Shown here in pieces: positions 6,596 through 53,992 of a DNA stretch of 64,000 nucleotides (its first letter is position 1; each line of letters opens with the position of its first letter). Below the pieces are notes generated by a model. It was not told the DNA's origin and searched no databases. It saw only the letters and a program-made list of their open reading frames with translations. The position numbers and the translations under genes are program-made. The stretch lies in contig JADGCO010000008.1 in NCBI GenBank assembly GCA_015228935.1, positions 1 to 64,000 of the forward strand, written 5' to 3'. The DNA comes from Magnetococcales bacterium. GTDB lineage: Bacteria; Pseudomonadota; Magnetococcia; Magnetococcales; DC0425bin3.

Positions 6596-8428
6596 CTACA
6601 TTCCTGGCAGGCGATCCGATACGAGGTGCCACAAACGCTCCTGGTCCTCATTCTGGATCACGGTAATCCGGCACCAGATTGAATACCAGGTCCCTTCATC
6701 CGTATGTTCGGTCACGGCGGCCACCACACCAATACAGGCCAGCCAATGCCAGGGATCCTCGGGAATGGCGAAGCGCAAACGCAACACGTCATCGACCTCG
6801 GGTGGTGGTGCCGGAACCATGAAATGAATCACCGGCCCTTCTCCGGGTCCCATCTGGACGACCACCGGCGTCATGACATAGCCCAGCAATGTGATCATAT
6901 CCTGCCGGATCACCCATTTGACCAGGGTATCCAGATTTTCTCCAAGATTTTGTATTTGTTTACGAAGATTTGACTTTTCCCTGCGCCGCTGCAAGGCCAG
7001 ACAGGATGTCATCTCCTTGCGGATGCAACGCATCTGCTGTTCCACATCCCGAACCTTGGCCTGACGCCTTGCGGCCAATATTTGTTGCAAAATTTTCAGA
7101 TAGCTCTGAAATACCTTGCCACAAGCGACCGTGGACTCCGCATCCTGGCCGACCAGGCTGACAACCAACACATCCAGACGGCGTATGACGGTCAGGAAAG
7201 GATCTTCCTCATCCGGGACGACGCCCCGGGCACTGACGGCATCCAGCAACAGACGCAAGGCGTTCATGAGTTGTGCCAGGCGCGCATGGGTCACACCCAA
7301 CGTCTTGACATTGGACATGAAGGCCTCCCGAGCCCGCAGCCGCGAAGGCAACTGCCGGGCATCCGGAAATCTGCCCTCCTGGGCCAGACTCTCCCGAATC
7401 CACTCCAGAAGACCGGGAGAAATATTCTCCCAATAAAACGGCAACACCACTTCCACAGAGAGATCTTCCGCCGTGAACGATGCCTCGGACGGCTCCTCTT
7501 CTCCCCAGGCTGGTGTTGCCGGCAATTGGATTGAATCCTCATCGGCTTTTCCAGAATCGTGCCACCCGGTACCATGCCATTCGGGATACTCTCTTTCCTG
7601 ACTGGCAATTGTCTCGTGCAACCGGGATTTTTGTTCCGGAAGAAGCTTGTTGGCCTGCATCATCCGTTGCACGACACCGGCTATTTTGCGGACCACCCGG
7701 GTGCCACCCCTTTTATTCCCGGAAAGTGACCCGGCGCGTGAGGCATGCTCTTTCTGTTCCGTATCCAGGATCACCTGGGTGTGGTCCTGGCTGATGGGGC
7801 GGGATGAACGGGTCAGATCCCCCCAGGAGATTCGTCTGGAATTTTGCGAACGGAGCCGGGCCTGTTGCGCCCGCGTGATGTAGGCGACCAGATCATCCTG
7901 ATCCTGGACCGCCATCAGGATGAATTCACAAATCACCTGCCGACGGTCCTGATGCGAATGCCCCTGTTGGTGCCGGTCTGCTCCGGTCACTGCCCGCACC
8001 CGCACCACCCGTGCCATGCAGACCAGTTCCGGCAGGTTGGCCCCCATGACCGTGAACTGCAAAGCCAGAATGCTCTCATTCTGCAATTCGGTCCGACGGA
8101 GCAAAAACGACAGCCCACCCCCGCTGACATCTCCCTGCACGTCATCCGCAGATTCATAAATCACCCGGACACGTTCCCGCCCGGCATGTCCCGGAAAGGC
8201 AATCGGGTCGGGGAGACTCCTCTCCAGATCAATTTCCTGTCGGAATGGCAACACACCGGTTTTGGCAAAAAACAGGCGCGCCGCCTGTTGGGCCTGGGAA
8301 TCCAGTTCCCGCCAACGCACGGAGAGCAGAGAGGAGAGGCGAAAAAAATTTCTTTGTTGGGTGACCATGGCACGGGAAATCATGACGGAGGCTCCAGAAC
8401 AGTCAAACTGCGAATCCATCCGGTTCAT
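6596..8428 (-). CDS. PilZ-domain c-di-GMP effector with a long central region
   Basis: The 610-residue protein has an N-terminal PilZ domain with both c-di-GMP elements: RNFFR (RxxxR, residues 26-30) and DVSGGG (DxSxxG, D100/S102/G105), then the strand MARVVRV. A low-complexity, charged middle (about 190-320) follows, then a helical segment (about 330-480) and a C-terminal beta-rich part (about 490-605, LGYVMTPVVVQMGPGEG and following) that could be a second, degenerate PilZ-like barrel. No membrane span is seen, so it is probably cytoplasmic. PilZ receptors control motility, exopolysaccharide or attachment; the output here is unknown. The start is ambiguous: ATG 8428, or ATG 8383 with GGAG 8 bases upstream, which would still keep the RxxxR motif. 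It is divergent from the cytochrome operon. Confidence 0.78.
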   Translation of the reverse strand: MNRMDSQFDCSGASVMISRAMVTQQRNFFRLSSLLSVRWRELDSQAQQAARLFFAKTGVLPFRQEIDLERSLPDPIAFPGHAGRERVRVIYESADDVQGDVSGGGLSFLLRRTELQNESILALQFTVMGANLPELVCMARVVRVRAVTGADRHQQGHSHQDRRQVICEFILMAVQDQDDLVAYITRAQQARLRSQNSRRISWGDLTRSSRPISQDHTQVILDTEQKEHASRAGSLSGNKRGGTRVVRKIAGVVQRMMQANKLLPEQKSRLHETIASQEREYPEWHGTGWHDSGKADEDSIQLPATPAWGEEEPSEASFTAEDLSVEVVLPFYWENISPGLLEWIRESLAQEGRFPDARQLPSRLRAREAFMSNVKTLGVTHARLAQLMNALRLLLDAVSARGVVPDEEDPFLTVIRRLDVLVVSLVGQDAESTVACGKVFQSYLKILQQILAARRQAKVRDVEQQMRCIRKEMTSCLALQRRREKSNLRKQIQNLGENLDTLVKWVIRQDMITLLGYVMTPVVVQMGPGEGPVIHFMVPAPPPEVDDVLRLRFAIPEDPWHWLACIGVVAAVTEHTDEGTWYSIWCRITVIQNEDQERLWHLVSDRLPGM

Positions 8429-21509: not shown

Positions 21510-22586
21510 TCATGCCTTTGGAGAAAAAGGACGGTGTGAAACTTCCATCTGTTTCGACTCCAAATGGGCGTAGGTACGATGGATTTTTACAATTTCCGGC
21601 AAAGCATCCACGAATATATGCACCAGGTTGGGATCAAAAGCGGTTCCGGCACAACGTTGAATTTCATCCACGGCTTGATCCAGGCTCCAGGCTTTTTTGT
21701 AGGGACGGGCGGAGGTCAGTGCATCAAACACATCGGCCAGGCTGCAAATACGACCCATGAGCGGAATCGCCTCACCGACCAGGCCAAAGGGATAACCTGC
21801 CCCATCCCACCGTTCATGGTGCGTCAGGGCAATCATATGGGCGGTACGCAAGAGCAAGGAAGGTTCCTGGTCGAGCAGTTCCCCCCCCAGAGTGGTGTGG
21901 GTTTTCATAATTTCAAACTCTTCGGCAGTCAACTTGCCTGGTTTCAGGAGAATTTTGTCCGGTATGCCAATCTTGCCCACATCATGCATGGGAGCCGCAT
22001 TGAGCAGCAGCTCCTGATCATGAGAAGAGAGTCCCATGGCACGTCCCAGCAAGGCAGAATACTGGCTCATGCGCTGGATGTGATAACCGGTTTCATTGTC
22101 CCGATATTCAGCCGCCTGCCCCAGACGGCGGATGATCTCCATGCGGGTGCGCAGCAAATCCAACTCGCGTTCGGACAGGGCCTGAGCATTACGGGCACCC
22201 CGTAAGATATAACGTATCCGATGACCCAACAGACCCCAGTTGATGGGTTTGGTGATAAAATCCGTGGCCCCTGCATGATAGGCATACTCAATGGATGTCA
22301 CATCATCCAGGGAGGTGGCCAAGACGACAGGCAGGTAGGCCATGTCATCGTGTTTGCGGATGGTCTGACACAGGCCAAAACCATCCATCACGGGCATGAT
22401 CACATCGGATATCACCAGATCCGGACGCTCCATGTGCAACAACTCCCAGGCCTGTTGCCCGTTTTCGGCCTCCACGACCCGGTAGCCAAACTGTTCCAAC
22501 GCCTCCCGCATCGGCAATCGTTGCAAAAATTCGTCGTCCACAATCAATACCAGGGGGGGTGTCAATATCTCAATCTCATCACGCAT
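21510..22586 (-). CDS. response regulator with HD-GYP phosphodiesterase domain
   Basis: A 358-residue two-domain protein. The receiver (residues 10-130) has the DDE acidic pocket, phosphoacceptor D61 (DLVISDVIMPVMDG) and lysine in TKPI. The HD-GYP domain (~160-340) keeps its motifs: MHDVGKIGIPD, the HTTLGGELL histidine, HHERWDGAGYP (HHExxDGxGYP) and LADVFDALTSARPYK. Such proteins hydrolyse c-di-GMP when phosphorylated. The ATG at 22586 is chosen; a GTG at 22616 would overlap the upstream kinase. It follows the two hybrid kinases on the same strand and is probably their output. A PilZ receptor lies at 6596. Confidence 0.92.
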   Translation of the reverse strand: MRDEIEILTPPLVLIVDDEFLQRLPMREALEQFGYRVVEAENGQQAWELLHMERPDLVISDVIMPVMDGFGLCQTIRKHDDMAYLPVVLATSLDDVTSIEYAYHAGATDFITKPINWGLLGHRIRYILRGARNAQALSERELDLLRTRMEIIRRLGQAAEYRDNETGYHIQRMSQYSALLGRAMGLSSHDQELLLNAAPMHDVGKIGIPDKILLKPGKLTAEEFEIMKTHTTLGGELLDQEPSLLLRTAHMIALTHHERWDGAGYPFGLVGEAIPLMGRICSLADVFDALTSARPYKKAWSLDQAVDEIQRCAGTAFDPNLVHIFVDALPEIVKIHRTYAHLESKQMEVSHRPFSPKA

Positions 22587-22600
22587 GGTATGGTCCAACT

Positions 22601-25600
22601 TCAATCCGAAGCACACAAATCACGCAAAGCCTGTTTGACTTCAACATACAGGGGACCGCTCAATCGGAAATATTCCCGCACCTTCACCAGATCGACATGC
22701 CCTGCCTCCATGGTCCGCCCCAGCTCCGCCAACCGGGCGGCACCCATGGTCAGGCTGGAAGATTTCAGGGTATGGGCAGCGATACGCACCGCATCGGAAT
22801 CGTTTTTTTCCAGGGCATTGGCCAATTCTTCCAACAATTTTGGGGTTCGCACCAGGTAGTGTTCCACCATCCTGCCCAACAAGCCAGTTCCCCCTTTCCG
22901 GGCCAATTCCAGGATGCGGTCCACCGCAATCCTGTCCAGCACCGGCACGAGTGACAAAACATGTTCACTTGCAGGATTTTGCACCGGTGATGCGGGAGAA
23001 AAAGAGGCAGGAACAGGATTGTAACCCGGATCCGGAGACAAGGGGGAACTTTTTGGCGGGGTCGAAGGAAGGGCAGCCTGGACAGGATTGTGACCCGGAT
23101 CCGGGGACAAGGGGGCACGCGCCGGTCTGGGCAGCCAGCGTTGCAGTATGGTTTCCATATCCGCCTGACTGAAAGGCTTTTGCAGATAGTCATCCATTCC
23201 CGCATCCCTGCATCGCTGCTGACTTTCGGGCAAAACGTGGGCAGTCAGAGCGATAACGGGCGTATGCAGACTCCCCGTCTGTTTTTCCCATGCACGCAGG
23301 CGTCTGGTCGTCTCGAATCCGTCCAGAATGGGCATTTCGCAATCCATGAAAACGGCATCGAAAGACAACACGGCATCACGAATCAGGGTCAGCGCCTGCT
23401 GGCCATGGCCGGCGACGGTTACCTGACAACCGAGCAACTTCAACGTTTCCAGTGCCACATCCTGATTGACCAGGTTGTCTTCCACCAGCAGGATATGTCC
23501 CTCGAAGCGGGTGAGATTCGATGCGTCCGGTTTCTTCTGACTCCAGGTAAAAAATTCCCGTTGATCCCCCGGTTGCTGCTTGCCAAACCGCACCGTAAAC
23601 CGGAACGTCGATCCCTGCCCGGGAACACTTTCCATCCACAAATTTCCGTCCAGAAGGCGGACCAGTTTCCGGGTTATGGCCAATCCCAACCCGGTGCCGC
23701 CAAACCGGCGGGTGATGGAGGAGTCTTCCTGGGAAAATGTCTGAAACAGGTGCTGTTGATATTCGGGAGAAATACCAATGCCGGTGTCGGCTATCTGAAA
23801 ACGCAACAAAACATCCACATCCCGCTCTTCCATGCTGTCTACCGCCAGGGTGACAGAGCCTTTTTCGGTAAACTTGACGGCATTACCCACCAGATTATAG
23901 AGAATTTGATTGAGACGATGAGGATCTCCCAGAAGGTGCAGAGGTATACCATCCGCCATTTTACACTGAAAATCCAGTTTGCCGAGTCTGGTCCGTGACA
24001 AAAACATGGCGCACAGGTCCTGAATCACCACATCCAGATCAAACCTCAATATATCCGGAGAAAACCGCCCATCCTGGATTTTGGAAAAATCGAGAATGTC
24101 GTTGATGATCCGGAGCAGTGTGTGTCCTGAACGGTGGATGGTTTCGGCATAATGGCGTTGCTGTTCCGTCAAGGAGGTTTTCAGGATCAGATCGGCCATG
24201 CCCAGCACCCCGTTCATGGGGGTGCGAATTTCATGGCTCATGGTGACGAGGAAATTTTCCTTGGCTCTTGCACCCGCCTCGGCGGCATGGCATGCCAGAT
24301 CCAACTCCTCTGTTCTTTTGCGCACGGTCTCTTCCAGGTTGTCCCGATACTGACTTAGTTTTTCCTCAGCCAATTTGCGGGCGGAAATATCCTGATGCAG
24401 GCTGATCCATATTTCGCCATGTTCCGCATGGGTCATGGTGGAGATGGAAACATGCCCCCAAAATGGAGTACCGTCTTTTCTGACATGCAGCACATCCCCT
24501 TCCCAGACCCCTTTTTTGAATAAATGGGCCATGATTTCATCAGCAATTTGCCTGGGCGTTCTGTCGGTGGCAGCGTAGATCAGGGAAATGGGCTTGCCCA
24601 TGATCTCCCCCTTCTCACAGGCAAGCATTTTTTCGAAGCCTCGATTCACAAAGACAATGATGCCATCTTCTGCCCGGACCAGACATACTCCTTCTGTCAT
24701 ATGTTCAATAATCCTGGCCTGCAACCTGACATCTTCTTCCCGCACGGCCCGGGCATTGATTGGCAGGTGACTGTAACGCTCGGGTATTTTTGGATCAATA
24801 CTGCCAAAACTTTTCACGATGGAGAATTCACCTGCCGCATTGCAACGCGACAAAAAGGTGTTGACTTTGGCGTGATGGGTTTCCGGGTCCATGGAAACCA
24901 CCCCCTGCGGACCGCTGATGGAAAGCGTCTCCAGGGCATCGACCAGCGCCTCTGGATCGAGGCTTCCGGCCTTGTTTGCCGCCTGTGCAAACGCTTTCAC
25001 GCACAGGTAGGTTCCTTCGCCAAAGTTGGTGAGTATGCCATTTCCCTGCGGCCAGAGGCCGGTGATTCCCGGCATGGTTGCCAACCTGGCCAGAAATTCC
25101 TGATTTTTTTCAGTAGCCACCGTCATAAAATAGGTATTACTGGAATAGTGACCATCCCGAACATCGGATGGCAATTGACTCGCCATCATTTCGTCATAAT
25201 GCCCCATCACGACGGCCATCCGGCTTTTCAGGCCCATCTCGGCAAAACGGGTCAGGAGCAACACCTGGTCAGCCCCGGCAAAATAGGGAACGAACACATC
25301 GGCTCCAGATTGTGCCACTTGTTGCAGTAATGAATCGATCTGTTCCCGGGCAACGCCGATGGAAAAGTACTCTTCGCCAACGACCTTGCCCTTGGCATGC
25401 AGCAACACCTGTTGTGCCGCACCAATCGAGCCACGCGGCCATTCATAATTATTGCCCGCAAAATACATGCATGGACCGTATTTTTCTTTCATATACGGGA
25501 TCATTTTTTCAATTTGTTGATTGGGCAGAGCGGCAAAATGGAAAAAATAACGGCTGAGAATGCTTCCTTCATAAAAAGAAAAATTCAGCAGGGGTATTTT

Positions 25601-25903
25601 TCTGGGTTCGGCCACCCGATAGGTCACGGCAATGCGCGAGTTGGAGAGCAGATTGCCGATCAGGGCCACACAACCATGTTGGTCGAGCAATTTTTCAGCC
25701 GCCCCCACGGCACTGTGCGGCATACTGCCATCGTCCTCGATGACCAGGTGCAACGGCCTTCCCAATACACCGCCGGATTCGTTCACCTCCATGGCGGCCA
25801 CCTGTCCCGCCAGGGTAATCTCCGGGCCATAAATCCGCACCACCCCCGTCAAAGGTGGCATGAGGCCCAGGCGCACAGGATGGTTAAAAATTAAATTCTT
25901 CAT
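22601..25903 (-). CDS. hybrid histidine kinase with an AmiC-like ligand-binding domain
   Basis: The 1,100-residue protein has domains in this order: a type-I periplasmic-binding-protein fold (~8-380, [18 protein letters not shown], like AmiC/branched-chain amino acid or amide sensors), PAS (~400-510), HisKA with MSHEIRTP (H557), HATPase (N box [17 protein letters not shown]), receiver with D854 (FMDCEMP) and Hpt with H1044 (AAHTLKSSS). There is no signal peptide or membrane span, so the binding domain should be cytoplasmic, as in AmiC. The linker before Hpt holds a 23-residue duplicated unit ([18 protein letters not shown]). ATG 25903 lies inside the end of the upstream kinase gene (20-bp overlap), implying coupling. 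Ligand unknown. Confidence 0.9.
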
Positions 25904-28595
25904 CACGCAAGGCCTGGGCAACCTCGGCAAAGAGAGATCTACACAACTGGAAATGTTGACGGACCATGCTCAGATTGGTGGCATTCTCCTCCATGGTCCG
26001 TGCCAGTTTGGCCAGACGTGCGGCACCCATGGTCAGGCTGGATGATTTCAGGGTATGAGCGGCAACCCGGACACCTTCAAGATTGTCCTGTGCCAAAGCC
26101 TGTTCCAGTTCAGCCAATAACTCCGGTGTCTGCACGAGAAAGTGATCAATCATTTTATCCAGAATGCCGTTGCCACCTTTACGGGATAATTCCTGGAGGC
26201 GTTTCAAGGCAACCTGGTCCAATACGGGATCAGATGGGAACAATTCTTTGTCGAAAGTGGCATGGTTCAATACGGAATCAGACGGCAATGTCTCTTCGCC
26301 AGCCGCAGCATCCGTTGCCGATACGACATCTGGCCTGTCCCGGGAAGGTTTCTGACACCGCTTCTGAGGCAACCATTGTTCCAACAAGGTTCCCAGGTCA
26401 GCCTGGCTGAACGGTTTTTGCAGATAATCATCCATCCCTGAATCACGGCATTTTTGCCGGGTTTCCTGCAACACGTGCGCCGTCAGGGCAATGACGGGAA
26501 TATGCGCCTTTCCTGCCTGTATCTCCCATTGCCGAATCTGTCGGGTTGTTTCATAGCCATCCAGGATCGGCATTTCGCAATCCATGAAGATGATATCAAG
26601 GAGACCATCGCTTGCCCGTACCTCAGCCAGGGCCTGCTGGCCATTACTGGCAACCGTGACCTGGCAACCAAACAGTTTCAGGATTTCCACAGCCACTTCC
26701 TGGTTGACGAGATTGTCCTCGACCAGGAGGATTCGCGCATCAAAATGACAGTTTTCCGGTATGGTTGGTTGATGTCCAGCCTGCCATGCGGAAATTTCAC
26801 TTTGATCTCCTGGCTGTTGCAGGCCAAAACGAATCGTGAACCGGAAAGTGGATCCCTGACCGGGAACACTTTCCACCGCCAACTCACCCTCCATGATGGC
26901 AATCAGCCGCAAGGTAATTGCCAATCCCAGCCCGGTTCCGCCAAACCGGCGCGAAAACGAAGGATCCTCCTGGGAAAATGCCTGGAACAGTTGGCCCTGA
27001 AATTCCGGGGAAATACCTATGCCCGTATCCGTGACCTGGAAACGCAACCGCACATCCACATCCCGCTTTTCCATGACCTCGACCAGCACGGCAACAGATC
27101 CCTTGTTGGTAAATTTGACCGCATTGCCCACGAGGTTGAGGAGGATCTGGTTCAGGCGATACGGATCCCCCAGGAGATAGTGTGGCACCCCTTCGGCAAT
27201 TTGAAAACTCAGTTGCAACCCTTTGGAACTGGCTTGTTCGGCCAAAATGCTGTTGATATCCTGGAAAATCTCATTCAAATCGAACCGAACGATATCCATG
27301 ATCAACCTGCCAGCCTGTATCTTGGAAAGATCCAGAATATCGTTGATGATGCGCAACAGGGTGCGCCCGGAACGGTGAATGGTTTCAATGAAATGACGCT
27401 GCCGTTTGCTCAGACGGGTGGTCAATACCAGGTCCGCCATTCCCAGGACCCCATTCATGGGCGTGCGGATTTCGTGGCTCATGGTGGCCAAAAAAGCCGT
27501 TTTGGCCTGGTTGGCAACTTCGGCAGCCTCCTTTGCCTGCTGTAATTCCAGCGTCCGACTCTGCACGGTCTGTTCGAGTTGTTCCATCATGGCTGCATGG
27601 GCAAGCAATTTTTCCCGCTGAGCATGCACCATTTGCCGCCAGAACATCCCAATGCTGGCAGAAATGATGACCACCGCAATGAGGGTCAACAGGCTGACCC
27701 AATAGATCAACTGATCAAGAGGTGCCATGATTTCATCCCGATCAATCTTGGCTATCAGAAACCAGGGAGTACCCGCAACAGGCCTGGTACTCGCAAACAC
27801 GGAGACATCGCGATAATCCATACCCTCAATGATCTGCACCTTGTTACTGAGAACGGCAGATACAGCCGGTATATTGGTCTTGTCGAGAGGATAACGCAGG
27901 ACAAACGCAGCATTGCGACGATGCCGCAGTTCATTGAGAAACAAAACCGTGTCATGATCACGTTTTACCAATAAAGTTTCGGCACTGGCACTAAGCGTCG
28001 GCCAGGTCTGGATCATGGAAAATAAAAAGGGGTCCGTTGGTATGGACAAAACCACGATCGCCACCCGTTGCTTTCCATCTGGCCCCATCAACGGCAAGGC
28101 ATAATCCATGTCAATATTTCCAGCAGCATCCTTATACAAATCACTGCGCTCAATTCGACCATTCTTCAAACTGTCCAACGCGGTCTGTTGCGAGACAGAC
28201 GTGAGATTGTCAACATGTTCCCCAATACCAATCACCTCCTGCCCGGAGGAATTCAAAACATGTGCTGAATGATAATATTTGGAGTTGGTAAACTGGGTCA
28301 ATTTTTTGGCAACAACCTGCTTCGAATCCGTATTGTCGGACAATACCAAACGTCTGGCATGCAGGGAAAACTCTTCATCGGAAGCCAAAAATTCAGCATC
28401 GGTTTGGCGCTCTGCAAGCCAGTTTTCAATCTGCACGGCTTTCAGCAAGGCAATTGCACTCAAGCCGTCGAAGGCTTTTTGCCGAATTTCAGGTCCATTG
28501 ATGCGCACAATGGTATAGGCAACCAGAGGCACAATCAGCAGCAGACCCAGGAATAAACCAATAAATTTGAAACGATCCTGCAATGCGATCATCAT
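25884..28595 (-). CDS. membrane hybrid histidine kinase with dCache-like sensor
   Basis: A 903-residue hybrid kinase: membrane helix 11-30, extracytoplasmic sensor (~31-295, dCache-like, with [18 protein letters not shown] and [14 protein letters not shown]), membrane helix ~297-318, coiled linker, HisKA with MSHEIRTP (H374), HATPase ([17 protein letters not shown]), a receiver with phosphoacceptor in [11 protein letters not shown], and a C-terminal Hpt with HTLKSSS. The catalytic part is very similar to that of the downstream kinase, so the pair probably arose by duplication. ATG 28595 has AGGGA about 8 bases upstream and is chosen over longer frames. It starts a three-gene unit ending in the HD-GYP regulator. 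Signal unknown. Confidence 0.9.
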
Positions 28596-47327: not shown

Positions 47328-47411
47328 TCAACAGCGTCATGGTTTATGGAATGGATGCCTCGTGGAAAAGGCGGTACACTTTGTGTTCAATTCTCACGAG
47401 GAGTCATCATC

Positions 47412-47795
47412 ATGGGTCTGATTCACGCTGACCTGGTCTTGAAAAATCCCCTGCTGGACTCGACCATGGTCATTCGCGCCATGGTTGACAGTGGCGCTCT
47501 CCTGATGTGCATACCGCAACATGTTGCCATGCAGCTCCAACTGAAAGAGCTGGAGAAACGCGAAGTCACCCTGGCCGATGGCCATCGACATCTGGTTCCC
47601 TACGTTGGTCCGCTGGAGATTCATTTTGCCAATCGCCGCTGTTTTGCCGGCGCGTTGGTGCTGGGCCATGAACCCTTGCTGGGTGCTGTCCCCATGGAAG
47701 ATATGGATATCGTGATCAATATGGCACAACAAAAACTGGTGGTGAATCCGGAGAATCCACATATCGCCATGGCACCCGTGAAAACCACTGCCTGA
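47412..47795 (+). CDS. retropepsin-like aspartyl protease (clan AA)
   Basis: A 127-residue protein of the clan AA aspartic protease family (TIGR03698-like). It contains MVDSGALLMCIP, where DSG holds the catalytic aspartate (~residue 26), then GPLEIHFANRRCFAGALVLGHEPLLGAVPMEDMDIV and a C-terminal LVVNPENPH. Proteins this size would dimerise as retropepsins do. ATG 47412 has GAGGAG about 9 bases upstream and is preferred over longer frames. It follows folC by ~85 bp and has no evident partner; targets unknown. Confidence 0.85.
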   Translation: MGLIHADLVLKNPLLDSTMVIRAMVDSGALLMCIPQHVAMQLQLKELEKREVTLADGHRHLVPYVGPLEIHFANRRCFAGALVLGHEPLLGAVPMEDMDIVINMAQQKLVVNPENPHIAMAPVKTTA

Positions 47796-47819: not shown

Positions 47820-50800
47820 TCAGATGATTTGAATCTTGTTTTGGGAAAGAATTTCCTGCATGACCACCAGGCCAAACCGGGCGGTATCGGAGTGGATGGT
47901 CAACATGACATCACTGCCGGAAACCCGCACCACGCGGCAGGAAAAGCCTGCATCCCTGGTCAAACGCACAAAGCGAAAAGTCCCCTGCATGCCCTCTCTC
48001 AGACCATCTCCGGCCCGTTCCAGTTTCATGCGGACGCCAACGACGCTGACATCTTCTGTAACACCCCGATGGGCAACCCCATCCGGCATTACAATTTCGA
48101 CTTTGGTTTTCAAGACAGACCTTTCCACCTCCCGACGGGATCCGACTTCCTCTGTCTGACTCCGGAAAGGAGATTGTGGTGGTCCAGGTCTTGTGGAAAG
48201 CCTGGATGCCAAGCGACCCGGATTGGTCACGGGACTTTTTTGACCCCGAATGGCAATCGCCCAGTCACCCTTGGAACTCTTTTGGATCTCCTCCTGGGCT
48301 GGGAACAAATCGCGAATATCTTCTTTTGCGTAGATCGGCGTTTCCTGCTGGATCGCCGGACCAGCCAGGTGATCCAACTCCACAAATTGTTCCTGACGGG
48401 CCGGAGAAAAAGCCGGCTGTTCCTGACGGGACGGAATAACAGCCGTCTGTTCCTGACGAGCCGGAAAAACGGCCGGCTGTTCCTGACGGGCCGAAAAAAC
48501 GGCCGGCTGTTCCTGACGGGCCGGAAAAACAGCCGGCTGTTCCTGACGGGTTGCAAGTGCAAACAGTTGATCCTGCCGGGTTGGTATGGAGGTCTGTTGT
48601 TCCTGCCAGATCGGAATAGCGGAAGTTTGCTCCTGCCGGGTTGGCAGAGGAGCCTGGTGTTCCTCCTGCCAGGTTGGCGTGGTGGTGGCCTGCTGTGATT
48701 CCTGCCGGGTCGGATCTGCGGTTGACTCCGTTACAGGTTCAAAGTACGCCGCGTTTCCCTTTGATGACAGATCATGATGACGCGCCAGTGGTTGACTCAT
48801 GACCTCTTTGGCACTCAACAATTGCTCATGCAATTGTTTGGAGCGATTGCGCAACTGAGTCAGTTTGGAAATAACTTCTTCACCCTGTTCGACCACATCC
48901 TGTTGATGGTGTTCCTGGGAAGCTTCCAGAATTTTTTGAATTTCCTCTGTAACCTGTTGGTAGACCTTGTCACCGCCCAACAGCTTCCAACCCTGATAAT
49001 CCATCTCGCCACTGACCAGGCCCATCTTGATGTTGGTCAGCAATCGACTGATATCGGAGCAGGTATCCTCGATTTCCTTGATAAACTGAACTTTTTGTTG
49101 ATACAGGGAATCAACTTCACTGATCCGTTCTATGGCATCCTCGATTTGCAATTCAATCGTCTTGAATTGTTCCAGCAAAGAAAAATTGTGCGGGCTTTCA
49201 TAATACAACAGGTTGCCCAATCCAATCCCTTTATTGTAAAGCAACATTTCATCGGCAACGTCGCTGGCATTCTTTCCAAGCCCGCGAATCATTCTTGCTT
49301 CTTCTTCGATACCCTGGAGAATATTATCATAATGAAGTATCGATAACTTCCATGTTTTGGCCCAATCCGTAGAGAATCCATCAAGCTTGTCAAATATTTC
49401 CTTTATTTTATTGATTTTTAATTTTGGGATTCTTTTCAAAATATCTTCAATATCAATTATTTTGTTTTTTTCCACAGAGGTTATTTTTACTCTTTCAAGG
49501 CGTCCTCTATTGGATACGCAAAAATTGTAAAGCCATCTTTTCCGTGACCATGGATAATCAATTTTTTCATTAATAAATGAAACCGTGAAAATCCAATATT
49601 TTGCCTGCCAAATCGGGCAATAAACATAATAGATCAAAAAGAATGCAATTTTTTTGTACAAGGTAACCCAGTAAACCGGATCTTCATCATGAGCAGAACA
49701 CCCTTCGCGCATGGAGACCATGACACAGCGCCAGATTTGCAGCATACCTTTTGGGGCACAGCGGGTACAGGTTGCAGAATTTTTCGTGATCTTGCCGGTT
49801 GCAGGGGAACGGTTGCCAGTTCCAGCTTCCTGGCGTTGCCGTCTGGCTTGCGGATCCAGTTCCTTGTAGGCCTTGTCGAGGGTCAACTCAAAATCGCGTT
49901 GCATTTTGGATTTTGTTTCTTCGCGGAGCGTTCCTCCCCGGACGATGGATTTGCACAGGGGCACACCACTGGTTTGTTTCAGGCTCAGCTCGAATTTTTC
50001 CTGTCCCTGCTGCATGCCTGCCGAGATTTTGGCACCCAATTGCACGAACAGCATTTTTTCCAGCTTTCCGTCCCATTGCAGACCTGGGTACAAGACTCCC
50101 AGGAACCGGCATTCATTTCGGTTCAAGGCTTTCTGGACACGATCCAGGGCACGATCCCAGGCTTGCAGGCCATAGCAGATTTCCTTGCGCACCGTGGCCC
50201 TGAAGAGACGGACCAGCCAGATTCTCCATCTGAGCCAGGGAGTGACATGGCCTCCGGTATATTTCAACTCCCCATCCATATCGAACAGCCACATGACGAG
50301 GGCATCCCGCATCAGGATTTCGGAGGGGCGTGGCAGCCAGCTCAGGAGGGAAAACCATACCTCTTTTTTTTCAAAAAAAGTCCTGACTTTACTCACGAAT
50401 TCGTCATTCCACATCGTGATGGCCGTGCTTTTATGGTCCAGAATTTTTTCATCTTTTTTGGCAATTTTAACCGTGAAACGAGTGAACAGCAGGAGTTCAC
50501 CGAGATCAAGCGAAATGGAAAAGAGCAGGATGGCCATCAGAAGAAATCTGGCCATGGTTGCGCCATATTCATCGATGAGAAACCGGTTCAGGGCGGCGAG
50601 GTCTTTATGGATGGCAGCCGGAATGACCCCTTTTTTCAACGCATCGATTCCCTCGATATCCGGGGCATCGACAGCGGCTGAAATATGATACTCGACCTGT
50701 TGTGTACTGCCGTACTTATCGACTTGGCGCAAAACGGAAACATGCAATTTCAGAAGTTTGTTGAGTTCGGTAGCCACTTCATCATAGACACGCTTATTGT

Positions 50801-52295
50801 CTTCGAAAGATGCTGTTATTTTTTGCACCAGGGTATTGATGTCATAGTGTTCCAGGGTCATGAAACGACGCAACTCGGCCACCGAGCGTCCACTGGGTCG
50901 CATGATATGGTCCAATTTATCCAGGTCCTCACGGATTGACCTGTGAGTTGCCTCAAAATTCTGGAAATAACGGGTGGTCAACTCCCGAATTTTTTCATCG
51001 ATGCTTTTGCTGAAATTCAATCCGGAGCCAAGCAGGATGGCATTGATGGCCCGCGAGGTTTCCGAATTCGTATGGACCTTGGGCAAATCGACCAGTCCTT
51101 CGGTGAAGCCGCCAAACACCACAAAATGTTTGGCCCAATAGCGGGGTCCCTTGCGGGGATCCTGGCTGGAGGCAATGCCGGAGAGTTCATCTTCGGGCAA
51201 TTTTTCAAAAGTCACGACCGACTGTTTGACGGTCAGTTCCAGGGCTTTTTTCAGGCCATGCAATGTTTGTGGATGGTCTGGATTGGCGGTGTCGGGATCG
51301 CCGAGAACGAGTTCGACCCGCCCCTTGATATCCAACCACTGTTTTTGCAGCTCACCCTGCTTGGAAACCAGGGAGACAATGCCATCATAATTGGTGTAGA
51401 CCGAAAAGAAAGTCAGCAACGTCGCCAGGACAATCCAGCGTGGATTGATCCCGAACGCATGGACCAGCCCTTTCCAAAACCGCCCTTTTTCGGCAAAGCC
51501 CTGGAACAGGCGACCCTTGAAGTCAAGAATGGCCAGCGAAAGAGAAATTCCGACGGCCAGGCCAACGACGTAACGGGCTGTTTCCCCGGCACCGCCTGCA
51601 AACAGGGTCCCAAAAATTTTATGGGATATGGGAAGCTGAAGCAGTTCGTTGATGCCACGAAACGTGGTGACTGTTGACAGAATGAAAAGCAATACAGAAA
51701 TGAATGGTTTCAGGCCAATGATCAACCACCGCAAAGAATCGGCCATATTCCGGATGAACGACCGTTTTCCACTTGAACCCCACCAGATTTCCCGGATGGG
51801 AGGAACCGCTTGCAGGTTCATGCGTTCCCGTTCGGCCAGCGCTTCGGCCACGGCCACCTTCAAGGCACCCCGGGCAGCTTCCATATTGAGCTGGAAAATC
51901 ATCCGGGTCAGTTTGAGAAACGGATTATCCTCAAGGGCCTCTTCGTCCCACTGCCGGATGGCTCCCTGGAAAGCGATAAACCGGTCGAGAATGGGGGTTT
52001 TGACCTCACTGACCTGAGAGGGATCGACGGCCTCGGCCTGTCGTCTCTCCTCGACCAGGTTTTTTTGCAGCAGGGAGATGGCCCGCAGGGTATCCGACCA
52101 TTTATCCTGGGCGCGGGAAAAAAATTCCTGATAACTCTCTTGGAAAAGAACCTGGTCTCGATTGTAAATCGGCAGAAGGCAGACTTGTGATCCCGGTTCG
52201 GTCTCTTGCGTAAACAGATTGATGACCGTCTGGCCATAAACTGCCAAAGGACGCAGGTCCGGTCTTTCTTTGACTTCGCTCTCAAGTAGATCCAT
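47820..52295 (-). CDS. very large membrane-anchored protein ending in repeats and a PilZ domain
   Basis: An uninterrupted 1,491-codon gene. The N-terminal ~180 residues are soluble; membrane helices are predicted at ~188-212, 240-258, 286-308 and 580-606, bracketing a helical domain (~310-580). A further helical region runs to ~860, then an AT-rich hydrophobic patch (AFFLIYYVYCPIW), coiled-coil-like helices (~950-1170), a tract of 10-residue units (TRQEQPAVFP-like, ~1190-1310) and a C-terminal PilZ-like domain (~1395-1470) with DVSVVGVRM (DxSxxG) and CRVVRVSGSD. The RxxxR arginines are not obvious. It may be a membrane receptor for c-di-GMP. No family recognised for the main body. ATG 52295 has only a weak ribosome site. 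Confidence 0.7.
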   Translation of the reverse strand: MDLLESEVKERPDLRPLAVYGQTVINLFTQETEPGSQVCLLPIYNRDQVLFQESYQEFFSRAQDKWSDTLRAISLLQKNLVEERRQAEAVDPSQVSEVKTPILDRFIAFQGAIRQWDEEALEDNPFLKLTRMIFQLNMEAARGALKVAVAEALAERERMNLQAVPPIREIWWGSSGKRSFIRNMADSLRWLIIGLKPFISVLLFILSTVTTFRGINELLQLPISHKIFGTLFAGGAGETARYVVGLAVGISLSLAILDFKGRLFQGFAEKGRFWKGLVHAFGINPRWIVLATLLTFFSVYTNYDGIVSLVSKQGELQKQWLDIKGRVELVLGDPDTANPDHPQTLHGLKKALELTVKQSVVTFEKLPEDELSGIASSQDPRKGPRYWAKHFVVFGGFTEGLVDLPKVHTNSETSRAINAILLGSGLNFSKSIDEKIRELTTRYFQNFEATHRSIREDLDKLDHIMRPSGRSVAELRRFMTLEHYDINTLVQKITASFEDNKRVYDEVATELNKLLKLHVSVLRQVDKYGSTQQVEYHISAAVDAPDIEGIDALKKGVIPAAIHKDLAALNRFLIDEYGATMARFLLMAILLFSISLDLGELLLFTRFTVKIAKKDEKILDHKSTAITMWNDEFVSKVRTFFEKKEVWFSLLSWLPRPSEILMRDALVMWLFDMDGELKYTGGHVTPWLRWRIWLVRLFRATVRKEICYGLQAWDRALDRVQKALNRNECRFLGVLYPGLQWDGKLEKMLFVQLGAKISAGMQQGQEKFELSLKQTSGVPLCKSIVRGGTLREETKSKMQRDFELTLDKAYKELDPQARRQRQEAGTGNRSPATGKITKNSATCTRCAPKGMLQIWRCVMVSMREGCSAHDEDPVYWVTLYKKIAFFLIYYVYCPIWQAKYWIFTVSFINEKIDYPWSRKRWLYNFCVSNRGRLERVKITSVEKNKIIDIEDILKRIPKLKINKIKEIFDKLDGFSTDWAKTWKLSILHYDNILQGIEEEARMIRGLGKNASDVADEMLLYNKGIGLGNLLYYESPHNFSLLEQFKTIELQIEDAIERISEVDSLYQQKVQFIKEIEDTCSDISRLLTNIKMGLVSGEMDYQGWKLLGGDKVYQQVTEEIQKILEASQEHHQQDVVEQGEEVISKLTQLRNRSKQLHEQLLSAKEVMSQPLARHHDLSSKGNAAYFEPVTESTADPTRQESQQATTTPTWQEEHQAPLPTRQEQTSAIPIWQEQQTSIPTRQDQLFALATRQEQPAVFPARQEQPAVFSARQEQPAVFPARQEQTAVIPSRQEQPAFSPARQEQFVELDHLAGPAIQQETPIYAKEDIRDLFPAQEEIQKSSKGDWAIAIRGQKSPVTNPGRLASRLSTRPGPPQSPFRSQTEEVGSRREVERSVLKTKVEIVMPDGVAHRGVTEDVSVVGVRMKLERAGDGLREGMQGTFRFVRLTRDAGFSCRVVRVSGSDVMLTIHSDTARFGLVVMQEILSQNKIQII
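48391..48720 (-). repeat. 30-bp coding repeats in the giant PilZ gene
   Basis: Units of exactly 30 bp begin TCCTGACGGG or TCCTGCCGGG on the plus strand at 48391, 48421, 48451, 48481, 48511, 48541, 48571, 48601 and 48631, with two degenerate units to ~48720. Each encodes 10 residues with a conserved RQEQ. Adjacent units around 48451-48540 are the most alike, suggesting recent local expansion. Confidence 0.95.
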
Positions 52296-52361: not shown

Positions 52362-53099
52362 TCATACGTGACCGGCTGCGAATAATTTTCTGACCTTGTC
52401 GAGGTCAGTAGCCGTATCCACCCCAGTGGCAGAAAAAGTCGTCACCACAACGCGCAATGGAAAACCGTTTTCCAGGGCGCGTAATTGTTCGAGTTTTTCC
52501 ATTTGTTCCAGCGGAGTGGGATTCATCCTGGCAAAGTGCTGCAAAAAATCGGCACGGTAAACGTATAAGCCTATATGACGCAGCACACCCGATGCAACAC
52601 CTTTTTGGTCCCTGGCAAAAGGAATGGGGGCACGGGAAAAATAGAGCGCAAATCCTTCCCGGTTACAGACCACCTTGACCACATCAGCCGAAAAAAAATC
52701 GATCGGATCGGTCAGGGGATGGGCCAGGGTCCCCATGGGGATTGTCGAATCGGTACGCATCGGTTCCAGAAGCTGGTCCAGCATGTGGGGATGGAGCAGG
52801 GGTTCATCACCCTGGACGTTGACGATCAGGTCTGCCTCCAGAGTTCTGGCGGCTTCGGCCACCCGGTCCGTTCCTGACGGATGGTCGGGGGAGGTCATGA
52901 TCACATCGCCACCGAAGGCCAGCACGGCCTGTTGAATACGTTCATCGTCGGTGGCCACCAGAACCCGGTCCAATCTGGCCTGGGCCGCACGTTCATAGAC
53001 ATGCTGGATCATGGGTTTGCCGGCAATGTCCGCCAGCGGCTTGCCGGGCAGGCGCGTGGAGGCGTAACGCGCTGGAATGATGGCCACGATCCTGGTCAT
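52362..53099 (-). CDS. kdsB: CMP-KDO synthetase
   Basis: A 245-residue cytidylyltransferase that activates KDO to CMP-KDO for LPS inner-core synthesis. Signatures are IIPARYASTRLPGKPL (~6-21), PMIQHVYERA, VLVATDDERI, DHPSGTDRVAEA and NVQGDEPLLHPHML. Length is typical. Its ATG overlaps the upstream gene's TGA by 4 bp (ATGA), so the DUF3108 gene and kdsB are translated together. The LPS heptose genes run the other way from ~54.1 kb, so this is an LPS region. Confidence 0.96.
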   Translation of the reverse strand: MTRIVAIIPARYASTRLPGKPLADIAGKPMIQHVYERAAQARLDRVLVATDDERIQQAVLAFGGDVIMTSPDHPSGTDRVAEAARTLEADLIVNVQGDEPLLHPHMLDQLLEPMRTDSTIPMGTLAHPLTDPIDFFSADVVKVVCNREGFALYFSRAPIPFARDQKGVASGVLRHIGLYVYRADFLQHFARMNPTPLEQMEKLEQLRALENGFPLRVVVTTFSATGVDTATDLDKVRKLFAAGHV

Positions 53100-53992
53100 G
53101 GTGTCCCCCCGGGTCGGGCATTTTCCGGCACGGCAGGTTGATCATGCAAGGCCTGGGAATGTCCCCGACCATCCACAAAACCAATCAACTCCGCCGTCAC
53201 CTGGCCAATACGAACCTTGGTTGCAACCCGCAGCGGCAAACGCCGTTCATCATGGGTGACCCAGATGGTCAAATCACCCTGCTGCCGAAACAGTTCCGAT
53301 GCCTGCAACAAGGGATGGATCGGAAATACCTGAAACCAGCCGAGTGGCGTGAAAAGATCTTCCGCCGGACCTGTCGTCACTTCAGCCATGTACCAACGGT
53401 CGCTGTCCAGGACCGGCAGGTGGATCTTGCCGGCACCCGGTTTCAAATCCGTCTGACTCCGCAGTTGGTAGAAAACGGTCATGGGATCGCTGATGTTATC
53501 GGAAATATTGTCCAGAATTTTGGGTGGATCGTCGTTTTTACGCAAGACGACCTGATCCTTGTCGCGCTGAAAATCGTAATCGACACGTCGTTGCCGGCGT
53601 CCCTGATTTTGCAGCTTGAGATAATTCAGGGTGGTCAACCCCCAGGCATTGCGAACCCCTCTGGCAGTGATGACATCATTGACCCCATAGATCCAATCGA
53701 CAGGCCCGATGGAAACCAGATTGGCCTTGATGGTATACTGAAAATCTCCCTTGGCAGGATCACCAGTGGTATCGTAGGCCAGGGAAGCCCGGCCAGCCGG
53801 GACCCCTTTCCAATGCACGTTGAAATCCAGCCGTTCGCCGGTCACGGCCCCCGTGGATGCCGGTTCTGCGCGGGCAATGCCAGGATCCCGGATCAATGAC
53901 TGTGTCCAGACCAGAAGCTGAATCAGGCAAACGCGCACCAGGAATAACCTTGGCCCGGATGGTTTGTTTGCTGCCGTCGTTGCCATGTGCAT
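53096..53992 (-). CDS. DUF3108 exported protein
   Basis: A 298-residue protein with an N-terminal hydrophobic export segment (FLVRVCLIQLLVWTQSLI, ~17-34, then ARAEPAS) and a DUF3108 domain (~50-275): GERLDFNVHWKGVPAGRASLAY, SDPMTVFYQLRSQ, VLDSDRWYMAEV, LTIWVTHDERRLPLRV. DUF3108 proteins are periplasmic and of unknown function, though often near envelope genes. The stop overlaps kdsB's ATG, so they form an operon. The promoter would lie in the divergent ~150-bp region shared with gmhB. Starts at ATG 53992 or 53986 are equally possible. Confidence 0.8.
   Translation of the reverse strand: MHMATTAANKPSGPRLFLVRVCLIQLLVWTQSLIRDPGIARAEPASTGAVTGERLDFNVHWKGVPAGRASLAYDTTGDPAKGDFQYTIKANLVSIGPVDWIYGVNDVITARGVRNAWGLTTLNYLKLQNQGRRQRRVDYDFQRDKDQVVLRKNDDPPKILDNISDNISDPMTVFYQLRSQTDLKPGAGKIHLPVLDSDRWYMAEVTTGPAEDLFTPLGWFQVFPIHPLLQASELFRQQGDLTIWVTHDERRLPLRVATKVRIGQVTAELIGFVDGRGHSQALHDQPAVPENARPGGTP

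Follow-up and report, generated by a model that had tools for sequence, protein, structure and literature searches.

A membrane protein with a C-terminal PilZ domain belongs to a family associated with magnetosome and ZorAB-like genes

A 64,000-nucleotide stretch of a Magnetococcales genome (contig JADGCO010000008.1; here called the window) encodes a 1,491-residue protein whose N-terminal core defines an undescribed membrane family. Within the collections searched, this family was restricted to genomes with magnetosome genes, from which magnetotaxis is presumed, and several of its clades are encoded beside a ZorA/ZorB-like gene pair. At somewhat less than even confidence, we favor a reading of the family protein as a membrane transducer through which c-di-GMP and two-component signals would act on a ZorAB-like motor that is anchored to peptidoglycan and serves magnetotaxis.

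RESULTS

The window gene encodes a membrane protein with a PilZ end

A preliminary description of the window, made from its letters, had proposed an open reading frame for an unrecognised membrane protein with a repeat arm and a PilZ-like end (Table 1). This reading frame is a maintained gene on the minus strand, because a genome of the same genus carries a homologue with 60% identity and no stops across residues 6 to 1488 and three further copies (one on contig C105 of the source genome and two in genome G002) share 61 to 64% identity over residues 3 to 1275. A suspected frameshift at residues ~780 to 900 was dropped, since paralogues align across the region. Promoter and terminator scans gave scores no better than shuffled sequence. 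The neighboring genes encode a cytidylyltransferase, a DUF3108 protein, and biosynthetic proteins; a reading of the neighborhood found no motor (ZorAB), mam, or signaling genes beside the window gene, which thus lies outside the magnetosome gene cluster.

Family-averaged hydropathy placed four membrane helices in the window protein, in agreement with the multi-span portion proposed earlier. Lys and Arg are abundant in the loop that joins helices 2 and 3 and in the stretch following helix 4; by the positive-inside rule, this suggests an N-in/C-in orientation with residues 304 to 578 (~275 residues) in the periplasm. Conservation within the core is strongest at DNPF, TT.RG.N.LLQ after helix 1, ILDFK, TNYDG, and RKGPRYWAK. 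The AlphaFold2 model of residues 1 to 780 was all-helical (mean pLDDT, 80.9), and residues 949 to 1167 formed a confident helical bundle (pLDDT of about 90), in line with the large helical region and the coiled-coil-like segment of the preliminary description.

The N-terminal region remained without a characterised family after profile searches and structure modeling, as had been anticipated. Sequence searches of Pfam, NCBIfam, and the PDB, whether started from the single protein or from family profiles, retrieved no family for residues 1 to 780, only chance-level or coiled-coil matches, and a Foldseek search of the PDB with the core fold returned nothing at an E value of ≤0.001 (best match, the MukB coiled coil at 0.057). 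The best sequence match, an N-acetylhexosamine kinase (E value, 0.001), was rejected, as it covers ~97 residues over membrane helix 4; matches to CdvA, LUC7, and OppF at residues 1031 to 1179 are coiled-coil artefacts. A Pfam scan and family profile searches found no methyl-accepting chemotaxis protein (MCP) signaling domain, HAMP domain, or kinase output domain, and neither the window protein nor the MC-1 family protein (see below) had a PADLOC match to any Zor component.

Toward the C terminus, the 10-residue repeats seen in the translation correspond to a 30-bp array of 5.4 copies inside the predicted disordered linker. The PilZ domain behind it scored 25.0 bits in the genome search (Pfam cut-off, 22.5) and 19.7 bits, just under the cut-off, in a whole-protein hmmscan. 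A PilZ fold at this end had been proposed: residues 1389 to 1485 were modeled as a six-stranded beta barrel, which Foldseek matched to the PilZ domains of BcsA, PA0012, Alg44, and YcgR and also to MotI (9fnn, E value of 1.4e-6; 8u0i, TM score of 0.81 on target). The RxxxR motif, previously called not obvious, is in fact present (R1388-EVE-R1392) at normal spacing to DVSVVG. Given the Pfam match, both motifs, and the modeled barrel with its likeness to known PilZ domains, this end likely binds c-di-GMP. All seven other members of the clade that holds the window gene retain both RxxxR and (D/N)xSxxG.

The source genome contains 39 GGDEF and 17 PilZ matches; thus, the suggestion of an extensive c-di-GMP network was a fair point. 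The two other window proteins named in its support, a PilZ protein (6596 to 8428) and an HD regulator (21510 to 22616, REC-HD), are both real. A hybrid histidine kinase with a periplasmic-binding-protein sensor (22601 to 25930) overlaps the start of the latter.

Table 1. Features of the window gene and adjacent genes (window positions; transmembrane helix boundaries are approximate)
Feature	Position	Strand	Basis
Small ORF, convergent with the window gene; weak likeness (below cut-off) to retropepsin-type aspartyl proteases	47346..47795	+	
Window gene (1,491 aa), undescribed membrane family with C-terminal PilZ	47820..52295	-	ORF, homologue alignments
PilZ domain, residues 1388-1485; RxxxR (1388-1392), DVSVVG (1415-1420)	47841..48134	-	Pfam, model, Foldseek, motifs
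Disordered linker, residues 1172-1388; holds 10-residue RQEQ repeats	48132..48782	-	Model, tandem-repeat search
30-bp tandem array, 5.4 copies, 89% matches; encodes RQEQPAVFPA-type repeats	48388..48550	-	Tandem-repeat search
Cytoplasmic helical bundle / coiled coil, residues 949-1167	48795..49451	-	Model, pLDDT about 90
Cytoplasmic helical part of conserved core, residues 603-780	49956..50489	-	Hydropathy, model
Transmembrane helix 4, residues 579-602	50490..50561	-	Hydropathy, model
Predicted periplasmic helical domain, residues 304-578; signature RKGPRYWAK; absent from source-genome C15 paralogue	50562..51386	-	Conservation, model
Transmembrane helix 3, residues 285-303; then conserved TNYDG	51387..51443	-	Hydropathy, conservation
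Transmembrane helix 2, residues 239-259; then conserved ILDFK	51519..51581	-	Hydropathy, conservation
Transmembrane helix 1, residues 191-211	51663..51725	-	Family-averaged hydropathy; helix in model
N-terminal helical segment, residues 1-190, predicted cytoplasmic; conserved DNPF (123-126)	51726..52295	-	Conservation, AlphaFold2 model
Cytidylyltransferase, kdsB-like; upstream neighbor, 66-bp gap to window gene	52362..53099	-	
DUF3108 protein; upstream, overlaps cytidylyltransferase start	53096..53992	-	

The core was found only in genomes with magnetosome genes, in two phyla

A profile of the core (residues 1 to 780) retrieved members from 24 of 41 Magnetococcales genomes, often in several copies, and from 27/399 genomes of the phylum, all of them within Magnetococcales. 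A single-protein scan of genome contigs found no relative, but an alignment-based pattern scan of 84,980 species genomes did, retrieving 42 loci (41 in Magnetococcales and 1 in a Bdellovibrionales metagenome-assembled genome [MAG]). In the class of this MAG, 5 of 129 genomes carry the core. Magnetochrome matches occurred in 6/129, namely, all five core carriers plus one weak match (Fisher P = 2e-8); three of the five carriers scored over the curated cut-off. No further carrier was found among 369 Bdellovibrionota genomes. A magnetosome-type cluster is recognisable in the Bdellovibrionales MAG, on a different contig from its family gene.

MamB was matched in all 41 Magnetococcales genomes (38 of them over the curated cut-off). 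By these profile and pattern searches, the family is restricted to genomes with magnetosome genes within the collections covered, which are Magnetococcales, its phylum, Bdellovibrionota, and the pattern-scanned genomes; the assemblies compared are fragmented. Because 17 of the 41 Magnetococcales genomes have magnetosome genes without the core, the core is not essential for magnetosomes.

The C termini of family members vary: some end in one PilZ domain, some in two, some in none, and one in a cyclophilin. Since PilZ is a variable accessory, it is the core that defines the family. The Bdellovibrionota members lack PilZ; in one from Bdellovibrionales (L102, 9536 to 12832), a cyclophilin-type isomerase takes the place of the C-terminal PilZ, and in two related genomes (L155 and L156), the cyclophilin-like part is a separate adjoining gene.

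Family genes lie in magnetosome gene clusters with ZorA- and ZorB-like genes

Two of the genomes compared, G013 and G020, are presumed to be those of Magnetococcus marinus MC-1 and Magnetofaba australis IT-1, respectively; each has a family homologue of 1,420 residues, the only core copy in the complete MC-1 genome. Each homologue sits within the magnetosome gene cluster, where it forms a single run with ZorA-like and ZorB-like genes. In MC-1, mamS and mamT (NCBIfam MamT, 248 bits) are followed by genes for a ZorA-like protein of 1,705 residues, a ZorB-like protein of 286 residues, and a protein of 200 residues (c5); the family gene comes next, and then two genes for small unknown proteins and one for a TPR protein. 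Seven genomes have a family gene on the same contig as an over-cut-off MamB; in five of them (MC-1, IT-1, G024, G023, and G019), the two are separated by 6.5 to 9.7 kb. In the source genome, one contig (C149) carries MamB, mamT, and a ZorA-like gene up to its end, and another (C105) starts with a ZorB-like gene, c5, and a family paralogue; these two contigs presumably join. As a separate observation, the magnetosome gene cluster of another genome (G040; L164, 8045 to 8560 on contig C153) contains a 171-residue PilZ-like protein with weak likeness to the family PilZ end.

Of the family genes, 62 have flanking sequence; a ZorA- or ZorB-like gene lies no more than 10 kb from 19 of these, and on the same strand in 18 cases. 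The window copy is not one of the 19, and for the other 43 no such gene was found in the flanks, partly as contigs end. A chance association was rejected, as the link recurs in several separate clades and on the same strand. No ZorA- or ZorB-like gene was found in the flanking sequence of the Bdellovibrionota members. ZorB-like genes occur in 38 of the 41 Magnetococcales genomes, and in 18 of these 38, including genomes without the family, the gene shares a contig with an over-cut-off MamB, about 1 to 23 kb away.

The partner genes encode proteins with the architecture of the Zorya pair. In ZorA-like proteins, three membrane helices are combined with a coiled tail of great length (in some, more than 2,100 residues); ZorB-like proteins have a single helix at the N terminus, in which an acidic residue (Glu) is conserved, and an OmpA-type C terminus. 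The MC-1 pair scored 58 bits (ZorA) and 93 bits (ZorB) against PADLOC models; ZorA-like scores of 56 to 76 bits fall far below the NCBI ZorA_1 cut-off of 190 bits. The Thr of the GLLxTF motif is lost from the ZorA-like proteins of MC-1, IT-1, and the source genome, so ion flow through these is doubtful; it is kept in other clades. ZorD and ZorE were not found in the sequence scanned, and the proteins of the MC-1 module were negative for ZorC, ZorD, and ZorE. A ZorC-like protein occurs only in G008, a genome without the family, where ZorA-, ZorB-, and ZorC-like genes (L158, 17124 to 19900, and L159, 990 to 3199, on contig C1) are followed by feoB, ~20 kb from MamB.

Signaling genes adjoin the family in both phyla

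Response regulator or histidine kinase genes adjoin family genes in both phyla. One Magnetococcales clade of the family is adjoined by a REC-HATPase protein and the Bdellovibrionota members by an HD-domain protein, a histidine kinase, and a response regulator. Beside another Magnetococcales clade (L053, 10575 to 11462, and 10 further loci) lies a gene for a protein with cNMP-binding and hemerythrin parts, which hints at oxygen input.

The window gene is a relocated paralogue of the cluster gene

A tree of 59 cores placed the window gene within an eight-member clade of cluster-type genes (SH-aLRT, 100) comprising those of MC-1, IT-1, and G024, the C105 copy of the source genome, and close kin; its end branch is short (0.17). 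Because it nests among cluster-type genes, the tree identifies it as an extra, relocated paralogue of the magnetosome-cluster gene, intact and with its PilZ motifs kept. The source genome holds two further paralogues. One on contig C15 (L048, 545 to 3310; 921 residues) lacks both the periplasmic domain (window residues 309 to 548) and the PilZ end and seems to be adjoined by a STAS-like gene. The other, on contig C6 (65608 to 68007; L049, 5608 to 8007), is a divergent protein of 799 residues directly behind two degenerate GGDEF matches (C6:61418 and C6:65005).

DISCUSSION

Under the transducer reading, the four membrane helices, flanked by helical cytoplasmic and periplasmic parts, would anchor the protein in the inner membrane, and the long cytoplasmic helical arm with its disordered repeat linker would carry the c-di-GMP-binding PilZ domain. 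In relatives, the partner would be a ZorA/ZorB-like complex, made up of a MotA-like channel whose cytoplasmic tail is very long and a MotB/OmpA-like protein with a peptidoglycan-binding-type domain. Control would presumably run from transducer to complex, with c-di-GMP and two-component signals (and hemerythrin-cNMP input for some paralogues) setting the state of the motor or envelope anchor, so that magnetosome-chain anchoring or swimming might be adjusted during magneto-aerotaxis. The window copy, as an extra paralogue of the cluster copy, would presumably act in trans, supplying that complex with a second signal. The REC-HATPase, HD, histidine kinase, response regulator, and cNMP-hemerythrin neighbors support a transducer role. 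Of the earlier proposal that a membrane-anchored PilZ on a flexible arm acts as a scaffold, the unrecognised membrane family with that build stands; a free-standing scaffold is not supported, because the family is tied to magnetosome gene clusters and a ZorA/ZorB-like motor.

A bolder extension, about which we are doubtful, is that magnetotactic cocci possess machinery dedicated to magnetotaxis, in the form of a ZorAB-type complex that is ion driven, gated by c-di-GMP, and anchored to peptidoglycan. Regulated by the family protein, this complex would mechanically couple magnetosomes or their chain to the envelope or report magnetic torque. If so, magnetotaxis would be actively controlled rather than passive.

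We give a minor share of our confidence to the possibility that the family protein is itself the membrane sensor for magneto-aerotaxis, its periplasmic part sensing the envelope or torque and signaling via neighboring response regulators, with the ZorAB-like genes as linked accessories. The signaling neighbors (response regulators and histidine kinases in both phyla, HD beside the Bdellovibrionota members, and cNMP-hemerythrin beside one Magnetococcales clade) fit a sensor, the Bdellovibrionota members lack ZorAB in the flanks examined, and the periplasmic RKGPRYWAK stretch is among the best conserved. However, the protein has no known sensor fold and neither a HAMP nor a kinase output domain, and the ZorAB linkage recurs across several separate clades.

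It is unlikely that the family protein works as a YcgR-like brake, in which a c-di-GMP-loaded PilZ acts on the flagellar motor and sets its speed or direction. The complete PilZ motifs, the Foldseek matches to YcgR and MotI, and the strong swimming of magnetotactic cocci reported in the literature would fit such a role, but four helices fix the protein in the membrane, the Pfam scan found no YcgR-N before PilZ, no flagellar genes were recognised alongside in the loci read, and PilZ is absent from many members. For the window copy alone, we also considered a duplicate, redundant or drifting, whose role would be in the envelope beside kdsB and unrelated to magnetotaxis. Its separate locus behind the cytidylyltransferase and DUF3108 genes, without motor genes nearby, is compatible with this; the 1,491 intact codons, the retained PilZ motifs, and the short end branch within the cluster clade make it improbable. 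That the module is an anti-phage defense system, a Zorya relative with the family protein as effector, is highly improbable: the ZorA and ZorB profile matches and the EH-signature (ZorC-like) protein beside the ZorAB pair in G008 point that way, but the family protein and the other MC-1 neighbors match no defense model, no ZorD or ZorE turned up in the sequence scanned, ZorA-like scores are far under the cut-off, and the site lies between mam genes in a family restricted, within the collections searched, to magnetotactic genomes.

The family is a concrete candidate for a role in magnetotaxis: it follows magnetosome genes in two phyla, has a receptor for a second messenger, and shares its loci with a motor-like pair. 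In the open-access literature, we found no description of the family, of its members in Bdellovibrionota, or of its ZorAB-like partners, and nothing linking magnetosomes to Zorya or to MotA and TolQ.

Comparison with known systems

The Zorya motor, built from ZorA and ZorB in a 5:2 ratio, is driven by ions, binds peptidoglycan, and has a cytoplasmic tail (PMC11890865). The family-linked genes match both profiles and encode the same kind of pair, a MotA-like protein with a long C-terminal tail and a MotB-like protein with an OmpA-type C terminus. They differ in their low scores, much longer ZorA tails, the conserved Glu in the ZorB-like membrane helix, the absence of ZorD and ZorE from the sequence scanned, and their position among mam genes, and the family protein is not a Zorya component. 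ZorAB-type complexes appear here in a setting that does not resemble phage defense. In strain UR-1, a trio of EH-signature, MotB, and apolipoprotein-domain genes near mamD-like and feoA was reported among unknown genes without known homologues in magnetotactic bacteria (PMC6783814). This is the same kind of ZorC/ZorB/ZorA-like set as lies beside feoB in G008, although that paper made no link to Zorya or to the present family.

BcsA, Alg44, and YcgR share the PilZ barrel with its RxxxR and DxSxxG motifs, and BcsA and Alg44 are likewise membrane proteins; the window protein, in contrast, has no glycosyltransferase, HlyD, or YcgR-N domain, and its core is unrelated to theirs by sequence or fold search. 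The closest precedent is a "protein with a PilZ domain" near mamAB in IT-1 (ORF 02273) and MC-1, about 31% identical between the two over 99% of the sequence, for which flagellar control was suggested (PMC5088516). With its PilZ end and position beside mamAB, it almost certainly belongs to the same family, although only the PilZ domain was reported, and that paper describes neither the membrane core and the paralogues nor the wider family across Magnetococcales and Bdellovibrionota and its ZorAB-like partners. What was known from that 2016 paper is a PilZ protein near mamAB; what is new is a core-defined, multi-copy Magnetococcales family with Bdellovibrionota members and ZorAB-like partners.
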